The notes beneath the pieces were generated by a model that was given only the letters and a program-made list of their open reading frames with translations, was not told the DNA's origin and ran no database searches. From an archaeon (GTDB lineage: Archaea; Micrarchaeota; Micrarchaeia; Anstonellales; Bilamarchaeaceae), in assembly GCA_020052735.1 (NCBI GenBank), contig JAGVON010000051.1, forward strand, positions 1 to 33,835: a stretch of DNA of 33,835 nucleotides. The letters run 5' to 3'. How positions within the stretch are numbered: the stretch's first letter is position 1; every line of letters starts with the position of its first letter. Made by a program: the position numbers and the translations under genes. Positions 10,932 to 13,167 of this stretch are shown piece by piece.

Positions 10932-12008
10932 GTGAACGTTTTCAGAGGGCTTGAAGGGATACGCGGAAAGGGCGTGTTCCGCAACGAGGACGCATTCAAT
11001 CCGGAATTCCTTCCGGACCAGGTTATCGGCAGGGAGAAAGAGGTCCGCGAAATCGCCTTCAACCTTAAGCCCGTGGGGGAGAAGAGGAGGCCCACTTCCA
11101 TGGTTTTGTACGGCCCTCCGGGAACCGGAAAGACCTGCTGCACCCGTCATGTGCTGAAGGAGCTTACTGAATATACGCAGAGGGCGGAGCCGATTTACAT
11201 TAATTGCTGGAGGCACTCCACGCGCACTGCTGTTCTCTCCGTAATATTGGAAAAGTTTGATGCAATCATGCCGCGGAGGGGCATAAGCTCCGAGGAACTG
11301 TTGCAGAGGACCGTGGAATTGATGAAGAAGAGCGGCAAAATCCCCATCATCGTATTGGATGAGGCGGATGCGCTCATAGACGAGGAGGAGGGCGGCTTAT
11401 TCTACGATTTGTTGCGCATGGGGGAGACGGAGAAACTGAATGTGGGCGTGATTGCGATTACGAACAGGGAGGATATTCTCGCTTTATTGGATAGGAGGAT
11501 TAGAAGCTCATTGATGCAGGCGGAAGTTGAGTTTAAGCGGTATGCCCCGGGAGAACTAAAAGAAATCCTAAAGGAGAGGGCAAAGGCCGGGCTGGTTCCC
11601 GGTTCGTGGGACGAGGAGGCGCTCGGGGTGTGTGCAGCCTTCGCTGGGAAGAATGGCGGGGATGCTCGCATAGGGATTACGCTCCTTTGGTTGGCGGGAA
11701 GGAGGGCGGAAGCTGGAAGCGGGCACATTACGGTTAAGGAAGTGGAGGAATCCAAGAATAAAGTATTGCAGGAAATAAAGGAAAAGAAGGCGGAACTGCT
11801 TGACGAGAACGACAAGGAACTGCTGGAATTCATAAAGAAGAAGGGGAGGGCGACAAGCGGAGACATCTATTCCGCATTCAAGGGGGTGAGCGAGAGGACA
11901 ATACGGGAGCACCTGGGAAAATTGGGGAGCATGGGGCTGCTTGAGATGGAAACGCTCACGGAGGAAGGGAAGAAGGGAAGGACGCGATTGTTCAGGGCGA
12001 AAATATAG
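10932..12008 (+). CDS. Orc1/Cdc6-type replication initiator (AAA+ with C-terminal winged helix)
   Basis: GTG start; Walker A VLYGPPGTGKTCCTRHVL, Walker B IIVLDEADALID, sensor VIAITNREDILALLDRRIRSSL, C-terminal wHTH. Confidence 0.93.
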   Translation: MNVFRGLEGIRGKGVFRNEDAFNPEFLPDQVIGREKEVREIAFNLKPVGEKRRPTSMVLYGPPGTGKTCCTRHVLKELTEYTQRAEPIYINCWRHSTRTAVLSVILEKFDAIMPRRGISSEELLQRTVELMKKSGKIPIIVLDEADALIDEEEGGLFYDLLRMGETEKLNVGVIAITNREDILALLDRRIRSSLMQAEVEFKRYAPGELKEILKERAKAGLVPGSWDEEALGVCAAFAGKNGGDARIGITLLWLAGRRAEAGSGHITVKEVEESKNKVLQEIKEKKAELLDENDKELLEFIKKKGRATSGDIYSAFKGVSERTIREHLGKLGSMGLLEMETLTEEGKKGRTRLFRAKI

Positions 12009-12020
12009 TGGAATGGGCAC

Positions 12021-12070
12021 GTTTAGCTGAACTAAACGATATGTTTAAAAATATTAAACAACTTGTTTAA
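12021..12070. promoter_or_regulatory. Operator-like array: five alternating half-sites at 11-nt spacing
   Basis: GTTTAG(12021) CTGAA CTAAAC(12032) GATAT GTTTAA(12043) AAATA TTAAAC(12054) AACTT GTTTAA(12065), immediately before the ATG at 12074. Confidence 0.75.
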
Positions 12071-12073
12071 TCC

Positions 12074-12610
12074 ATGAAAACACTTATCTCGACCAGAGGC
12101 AGGAAGAAAATCCTGAAAGAAATACTCTCAAACCCGGGGAAAGCATATGGGGTAAGGGAACTCGCAACAGCTGTGGGGGTTTCCCCGGGTGCGGTCTCCA
12201 TATTCCTGAGGGCCCTTGAAAAGGACGGAATAATAAAGAAGGGGATGCCTGACCTTTCAAACCCTGAAGTTAGGGCGCTGAAGGTTCTTTTCAACGTGGA
12301 AACGGTGCGTGCGATTTACGGAAAATTAGTGAAGAAATTCAAAATAGGCGGAATGGGCATCTATGGAAGTTGGGCAAAGGGAGAGAATACCGAAGAGAGC
12401 GACCTGGACGTGTGGATCAGGGTGAGGAAGGAACCGCCGCCGCTGGAAACTGCGGAGATCAGGAGGATTGTGAAGGGAGGGGCGGGGGTTGCTAACGCAA
12501 GCATATTATTTGTTACCCCGGAAAGCCTTAGGGGGATGCGGGAGAAGGACAGCGTGTTCTATTCCACGCTCTTCCATTCCTTAGTGATTGGAGGTGAGGG
12601 GATTGCTTAA
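12074..12610 (+). CDS. HTH-fused minimal nucleotidyltransferase (MNT), MntA-like antitoxin
   Basis: N-terminal wHTH (YGVRELATAVGVSPGAVSIFLRALEKDGII) followed by MGIYGSWAKGENTEESDLDVWIRV (GSx10DxD NTase motif). Confidence 0.9.
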   Translation: MKTLISTRGRKKILKEILSNPGKAYGVRELATAVGVSPGAVSIFLRALEKDGIIKKGMPDLSNPEVRALKVLFNVETVRAIYGKLVKKFKIGGMGIYGSWAKGENTEESDLDVWIRVRKEPPPLETAEIRRIVKGGAGVANASILFVTPESLRGMREKDSVFYSTLFHSLVIGGEGIA

Positions 12611-13028
12611 ATTTGAAGGATGCGTCAAGGCGGGGATGCTGCGAACGATGCCGCCTTCCCCGGAACAGGCGCTGCTGAGCATGGAGAAGGCCGAGGAGAT
12701 TCTTGAGGATGCGAAGGCGAACCTTGAGGAGGGAAGGTATAACGCAGCCGCGATGCTCGCCTACGTTTCCATGCTGAATGCCGCGCGAGCGGTGCTCTTC
12801 AAGGATGGCTGGAGGGAGAAGAGCCATTATTGCATAACACGCTACCTTGAGGCAAAGCACGGGGATGTGATCGGGAAGGAAATGGTTGTTTTATTGGATG
12901 ATTACCGGGATACGAGGCACGACGTGCAATATTCCGCCGGGTATAATGCGAGCCCCGAGAAGGCGTCGGGCATGGTATCTTTTGCGGGAAAGTTTCTGGA
13001 GAAGGTCGGGGGCATATTGGAAAAGTAG
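12594..13028 (+). CDS. HEPN-domain protein, HepT-like toxin partner of the MNT
   Basis: Overlaps the MNT stop; ALLSMEKAEEILEDAKANLEEGRYNAAAMLAYVSMLNAARAVLF ... YRDTRHDVQY, HEPN-like. Exact start (12588/12594) uncertain. Confidence 0.85.
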   Translation: MRGLLKFEGCVKAGMLRTMPPSPEQALLSMEKAEEILEDAKANLEEGRYNAAAMLAYVSMLNAARAVLFKDGWREKSHYCITRYLEAKHGDVIGKEMVVLLDDYRDTRHDVQYSAGYNASPEKASGMVSFAGKFLEKVGGILEK

Positions 13029-13049
13029 GCGGTAGGGTCTGAAAATTGG

Positions 13050-13107
13050 TTATACCAGATGGTTTTAAACCAAAAGGTATAATTTTTATAAATAACATAT
13101 GTTATTT
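13050..13107. repeat. Two consecutive palindromic elements
   Basis: Nested TTATACC-AGA-TGGTTT-T-AAACCA-AAA-GGTATAA (13050-13082), then 18-bp perfect palindrome AAATAACATATGTTATTT (13090-13107). Confidence 0.7.
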
Positions 13108-13125
13108 TAAAATAACGAAGGAGCT

Positions 13126-13167
13126 GGGAAAAAAGGAAGGGCGAGGGTGTTCAGGGCGAAATTATGA
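13126..13167 (+). repeat. Imperfect copy of the 3' end of orc1/cdc6
   Basis: In-frame reading GKKGRARVFRAKL* versus orc1/cdc6 end GKKGRTRLFRAKI* (11967-12008); contains an identical 14-nt block TGTTCAGGGCGAAA. Confidence 0.65.

Follow-up and report, generated by a model that had tools for sequence, protein, structure and literature searches.

The window, by which we refer to the whole analyzed stretch of 33,835 nucleotides, belongs to a Candidatus Micrarchaeota MAG with a genome of 1.09 Mb; the closest named relative was isolate Sv319 (84% identical). It contained a gene for an HTH-MNT protein, followed by a gene for a HEPN protein that overlaps with it at positions 12588 to 12610 (Table 1). 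The AlphaFold2 model of the HTH-MNT protein was confident (pLDDT 93.9) and consisted of a winged HTH at about residues 8 to 58, with the recognition helix at residues 38 to 50, a linker helix of 25 residues (64 to 88), and the nucleotidyltransferase domain; the nearest solved folds were MNT antitoxins. Alignments placed the GSX10DXD motif of the MNT domain at G98-S99 and D110-x-D112. An Orc1/Cdc6-type gene was located upstream of the pair both here and in a sister genome, and the other homologous loci showed different-looking upstream genes.

Table 1. Coordinates of the genes and operator half-sites in the window
Feature	Coordinates	Strand	Description
Orc1/Cdc6-type AAA+ protein	10932..12008		Directly upstream; Cdc6 lid, C-terminal winged HTH
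Half-site 1, GTTTAG	12021..12026	+	Forward; sequence, plus register and conservation in homologues
Half-site 2, CTAAAC	12032..12037	-	Reverse, GTTTAG on the - strand; sequence and homologues
Half-site 3, GTTTAA	12043..12048	+	Sequence and homologues; doubles as TATA-like box TTTAAAAA (12044-12051)
Half-site 4, TTAAAC	12054..12059	-	Reverse; sequence and homologues
Half-site 5, GTTTAA	12065..12070	+	Forward; sequence and homologues
Half-site 6, GAAAAC (ATGAAAAC)	12076..12081	-	Reverse; overlaps start codon and codons 2-3; based on dyad 12065-12081
HTH-MNT protein	12074..12610	+	178 aa, putative antitoxin/autorepressor; Pfam HTH_24 and NTP_transf_2
HEPN partner	12588..13028	+	146 aa, predicted toxin; PF05168, motif RDTRHDVQY
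Palindrome-rich stretch	13046..13166		Beyond the HEPN gene

The gene pair belongs to the class II HEPN/MNT modules (PF05168/PF01909). As in the modules of this class described in a previous study (PMC7641770), the gene for a PF05168 HEPN protein is located downstream of the gene for a PF01909 MNT protein with GSX10DXD in one operon, the 2 genes overlap, and a conserved tyrosine follows the histidine in the HEPN protein, here in an RxxRHxxxY motif that is present in the intact HEPN proteins and does not contain RX4H. According to that study, class II modules are more prevalent than class I modules in archaea, and the toxins tested in its accessible part were from class I pairs only. The first-pass annotation had referred to MNT-HEPN (MntA/HepT) pairs as a known AMPylation-based class. 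This detail needs correction, as the HEPN protein carries RDTRHDVQY in a PF05168 domain instead of the RX4HXY motif of class I (PF01934 or PF08780); the NCBIfam MntA model scored only 20 bits, with a cut-off of 60. AMPylation of the HEPN protein by the MNT protein is plausible from the sequence, since the MNT domain has retained GSX10DXD.

Five half-sites of strictly alternating orientation, spaced 11/11/11/11 nt and starting at positions 12021, 12032, 12043, 12054, and 12065, were found as described in the first-pass annotation. They were said to end 4 bases before the start codon, which is right if counted to the A, with 3 bases (TCC) between position 12070 and the ATG at 12074. The number of half-sites was set too low, however: all 5 are present, but a sixth, GAAAAC, had been missed exactly 11 nt beyond the fifth, within codons 1 to 3 of the HTH-MNT gene. 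The complete array at positions 12021 to 12081 thus forms 3 inward-facing dyads (12021 to 12037, 12043 to 12059, and 12065 to 12081). The five-part pattern, with 25 fixed bases, had 1 perfect match in the window and was not found with up to 3 mismatches in any of 100 dinucleotide shuffles of the window. No second copy was identified in the 1.09-Mb genome, in which a run of 3 half-sites, with 2 mismatches at most allowed, turned up in just 2 other places, both of them weak. We also searched the same genome for additional targets of the array and found none; the lack of other copies suggests that the operator is self-directed.

To identify homologous loci, we performed profile searches of 301 Micrarchaeota genomes and defined the 21 proteins with E-values below 1e-48 as close homologues; a wide gap separated these from the more remote HTH-NTases, for which the best E-value was 3e-28. 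A single-protein search of the genome collection had yielded only 1 relative, the rest being obtained from the Micrarchaeota genomes. Relatives were not found on the viral contigs searched, and the plasmid search gave a single weak haloarchaeal match, and nothing thus pointed to a location on a phage or plasmid. The HEPN gene was located downstream of the HTH-MNT gene in 19 of the 21 loci, being absent from L010 and truncated in L012. The alternating 11-nt array was present in 18 of the 21 loci, where a period of 11 clearly outscored the other periods from 8 to 14, and the array score was reached by none of 300 shuffles in each of the 18. The half-site phase is thereby kept in 18 of the close homologues; a lack of such conservation in orthologous loci is what the first-pass annotation had named as refuting its proposal. 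Relative to the ATG, the array started at -53 or -55 in 17 of the 18 loci; that of L011 was displaced by 2 half-sites further upstream in unchanged register. The arrays in L034 and L035 were weaker, with half-sites further from the ATG; it was also noted that Q replaces H of the RxxRH motif in the HEPN protein of L034. No recognizable array was seen in L010, which is an orphan HTH-MNT gene with no HEPN gene nearby and the only member in which the first Asp of DxD has changed (ExD), enzyme, partner, and operator having decayed together. A scan of the 301 genomes with a generic array pattern of the right phase gave 35 matches, 22 of which were at 15 HTH-MNT loci, and the remaining 13 were all within long open frames. 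A control pattern of the wrong phase, with a gap of N7 in place of N9, gave 14 matches and none at HTH-MNT loci, which is about the same rate as for the 13 off-locus matches to the right phase.

The array is superimposed on the putative promoter and on the start of the gene. The TATA-like box in half-site 3 is centered about 26 nt upstream of the ATG at 12074, which is the spacing that archaeal promoters of leaderless mRNAs are expected to have; a sigma-70 promoter scan is irrelevant here, as the scan is bacterial and the host archaeal. Among 15 non-redundant loci, positions 2 to 4 of half-site 3 were T in all 15, even where other half-sites have C, and the positions thereafter were A or T (GTTTAA, GTTTTT, GTTTAT, ATTTAT). 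Half-site 3 still tracked the word of its own locus (P = 5e-5), despite its role as a TATA box. In all 17 loci with standard placement, half-site 6 overlapped the start codon, in the variants ATGAAC, ATGAAT, ATGGAC, GAGAAC, GAGAAT, GCGAAC, GCAAAC, and GAAAAC. Its fit to the word used at the same locus exceeded its fit to the words used elsewhere (P = 5e-5), and the result was the same when the shuffling was limited to loci of the same ATG phase. The extension of the operator into the coding sequence means that residues 2 to 3 of the protein are constrained (MN, MD, MRT, MKT, MQT).

The geometry was constant among the 18 loci and the half-site words varied. The word was GTTTAA/G in the window and L007 (recognition helix PGAVSIF), GTTTGG/GTTTAG in L008 and L009 (PASASVL), GTTTAC in L030 (AGFVSVF), GTTCTC/T in L002, L011, and L014 (PSFVSNL/PSFVSIF/KSVVSGL), RTTCAC/T in L012, L013, L015, L016, L028, L029, and L038 (P[GA]QVHKY and relatives), GTCCAC in L031 and L032 (RS[HQ]AHKY), and GTTCAA in L033 (PSQVSVT). 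In partial Mantel tests with the MNT domain controlled for, the word distance was correlated with the HTH distance in the 18 loci (r = 0.54, P = 2e-4), and the value for the 15 non-redundant loci was r = 0.47. With the HTH controlled for, there was no correlation with the MNT distance (r = -0.18, P = 0.98). These P values are inexact because of the shared descent of the homologues. GTCCAC in place of GTTCAC puts a G on the opposite strand, a change that coincides with an Arg at position 38, as would be predicted by a direct Arg38-G contact, an inference from 2 sequences.

A natural chimera, L012, pointed in the same direction. Its HTH was 77% identical to that of L016 and 33% identical to that of L009, whereas the corresponding values for its MNT domain were 62% and 90%. 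Similarity at the nucleotide level to L016 started 65 nt upstream of the ATG, and similarity to L009 started only at about nucleotide 258 of the gene. The operator was of the L016 type, and the HEPN gene was truncated after about 33 codons. L012 thus combines the HTH and operator of one lineage with the MNT domain of another, the operator going with the HTH and not with the MNT domain. Mere relatedness as the cause of the covariation is disfavored both by this chimera and by the control for the MNT domain in the Mantel tests. The proposal of the first-pass annotation that the fused HTH reads the array has thus gained from the comparison, in that the word covaries with the HTH and not with the MNT domain.

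We consider it likely, with a probability of roughly 0.85, that positions 12021 to 12081 constitute the autoregulatory operator of a class II HEPN/MNT toxin-antitoxin operon, read by the fused HTH. The comparison of loci supports the existence and phase of the array, the way it overlaps the TATA box and start codon, and the covariation of its words with the HTH; it also gives good support to the predicted specific recognition of the array by the fused HTH. The winged HTH on the MNT antitoxin would bind every half-site, with adjacent half-sites facing alternately toward and away from each other one helical turn apart, an arrangement that would align the protein units along some 60 bp on approximately the same face of the DNA. 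Protein on half-sites 1 and 2 would cover the DNA preceding the TATA box, protein on half-sites 3 and 4 the TATA box itself, and protein on half-sites 5 and 6 the first codons and the predicted transcription start, which is assumed from the TATA spacing to be near position 12074, with an mRNA that would be leaderless or nearly so. We propose that protein bound over the TATA box and start would block TBP/TFB and RNA polymerase; this placement suggests repression by the HTH-MNT protein, alone or with the HEPN protein, which would itself be a toxin held in check by the MNT protein. Loss of free antitoxin, or a changed ratio to the HEPN protein, may then relieve the repression. Binding along the array may be cooperative, a property that cannot be read from the DNA, as AbiE antitoxins with several inverted repeats show cooperativity of either sign: positive for AbiEi of Streptococcus agalactiae at its repeats, and negative for Rv2827c of M. 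tuberculosis at 4 repeats (PMC7319586).

The half-sites are AT-rich and one of them doubles as a TATA box, as would also be seen if AT-rich words had clustered near the TATA box by chance. This explanation is refuted by the shuffles of the window (0 of 100) and by the 18 of 21 homologues in phase, and we assign it a negligible probability. We regard it as very improbable that the functional element is a secondary structure in RNA or DNA, such as a hairpin, terminator, or cruciform. The first dyad could form a terminator-like stem at positions 12020 to 12038 (7 pairs, 3 of them G-C), but chance alone would give about 1 stem of this kind there, and most of the array is located upstream of the predicted transcription start. 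Furthermore, the words covary with a DNA-binding domain, and both inward-facing and outward-facing pairs are kept, for which a single hairpin has no need. Only slightly more credit can be given to a site for another regulator, either a global archaeal repressor or the upstream Orc1/Cdc6-type protein. The upstream AAA+ protein has an HTH of its own, and words of this type are generic for HTH proteins. However, the array stays with the HTH-MNT genes whatever the upstream gene, it has no further copies in the genome, and its word tracks the fused HTH, not the MNT domain, in the L012 chimera as well.

A variant of the autoregulatory reading is that the array is read by a complex of the HTH-MNT and HEPN proteins, in which HEPN oligomers would bridge the units and conditional cooperativity would let the repression report the toxin:antitoxin ratio. 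MNT and HEPN proteins form stable multimers in pairs studied previously, a hetero-octamer in one report (PMC7641770) and a 1:4 complex in another (PMC11586414). The regular 11-bp tiling would suit a multivalent complex, and L010, which has no HEPN gene, has lost the array. On the other hand, the array is retained in L012 despite the truncated HEPN gene, and repression by AbiEi, functionally the nearest analogue, is not enhanced by its toxin (PMC7319586). We regard the variant as possible but less likely than not. More tentatively still, and rather unlikely in our view, the HTH-MNT protein (with HEPN) in a row on one DNA face would act as an occupancy sensor of the toxin:antitoxin ratio, the HTH and operator would form an exchangeable cassette, and the MNT enzyme, which in its best-studied relatives has no recognized DNA-binding domain, would here serve specifically as a transcription factor whose protein-DNA code can be read, exemplified by Arg38 with GTCCAC instead of GTTCAC. 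If the cassette part is true, a dozen paralogous HTH-NTase modules would hold private operator words without cross-regulation.

Autoregulated toxin-antitoxin operons are already known as a kind. AbiEi and Rv2827c are two-domain antitoxins with an N-terminal winged HTH that repress their own operons via inverted repeats overlapping the promoter (PMC7319586), as predicted here. Their second domain is not an MNT domain, their toxin is a DUF1814 nucleotidyltransferase, their promoter is bacterial instead of containing a TATA box, and their 23-bp repeats are separated by 3, 4, or 13 bp, in contrast to the 6-bp half-sites at a constant 11 bp in the window. Membership of the AbiE family was rejected, as the partner is a PF05168 HEPN protein and not DUF1814/AbiEii. 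The class I module MntA/HepT of Shewanella oneidensis resembles the pair in that the MNT gene with GSX10DXD is located upstream of the HEPN gene (PMC4621449, PMC7641770), and its antitoxin reportedly binds its own promoter and represses it (PMC4621449). However, that MNT protein has no recognized DNA-binding domain and its 2 palindromes are dissimilar (PMC4621449), as opposed to the winged HTH and regular array described here, and its HepT protein has RX4HXY, which is missing from the HEPN protein in the window. The class II MNT proteins also differ, in that the accessible part of the study mentions no operator for them (PMC7641770) and the MNT protein here bears a winged HTH. Among defense candidates, the PADLOC pair PDC-M05A/B similarly consists of an HTH-NTase and a HEPN-like protein, with profile matches of 2.2e-10 and 7.9e-7. 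The latter match covered HEPN residues 9 to 140, whereas the best stretch for PDC-M05A was confined to residues 4 to 56 of the HTH-MNT protein, that is the HTH part only, and another protein in the same genome matched far better (8.5e-43); the defense function is a candidate label only.

In 2009, the MNT-HEPN modules were set apart from other toxin-antitoxin systems for their seeming lack of a transcription regulator, and the antitoxin was judged unlikely to be one (Makarova et al. 2009, PMC2701414). Binding of a bacterial MNT protein to its own promoter was reported in 2015 and then called the first such case (PMC4621449). The loci described here would represent an archaeal MNT-HEPN branch with autoregulation built in, visible from the sequence. 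We found no experimental work on toxin-antitoxin regulation in Micrarchaeota in the literature searched, and no description of an array of this type in the same literature, with most subscription journals and preprints outside its coverage. Since the words differ across the 18 loci and the geometry is fixed, these loci provide a ready-made series for studying DNA recognition by a small winged HTH and the insulation of paralogous toxin-antitoxin modules from one another.

The first-pass annotation had considered the HTH fusion together with the tiled operator to be the unusual part. The fusion is common, with about a dozen HTH-NTase genes in this 1.09-Mb genome; the equal-phase six-part array, built into the TATA box and start codon, is the unusual feature. 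At least 8 further HTH-NTase genes were observed on other contigs of the genome (L149 to L156 on C84, C64, C6, C19, C48, C45, C103, and C100), most of them with a palindromic word of their own around the TATA box and start codon (GTTAT/ATAAC, GAACC/GGTTC, TATCAA/TTGATA), possibly a set of insulated self-regulators. We also examined the array geometry of 40 more distant HTH-NTases across the phylum. Many had palindromic words by the ATG, mostly at unequal spacing and not 11/11, with best scores at 8 or 10 and an alternation of about 8/12. Words of the type GAAC/GTTC were often seen at L109 to L148, alternating at about 8/12 and frequently entering the start codon (GAACATG, ATGTTC). Judged by eye and without statistics, self-operators look like a frequent habit of HTH-NTase genes, and the equal 11-nt six-part form is a trait of this HTH-MNT branch.

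A second set of palindromes was noted beyond the HEPN gene. This stretch contained TTATACC..GGTTTTAAACC..GGTATAA and then AAATAACATATGTTATTTTAAAATAAC, followed by a short piece (TGTTCAGGGCGAAA) similar to the 3' end of the Orc1/Cdc6 gene located upstream, and the stretch was conserved in the sister genome (L006). It might represent an operator plus the tail of a deleted HTH gene.
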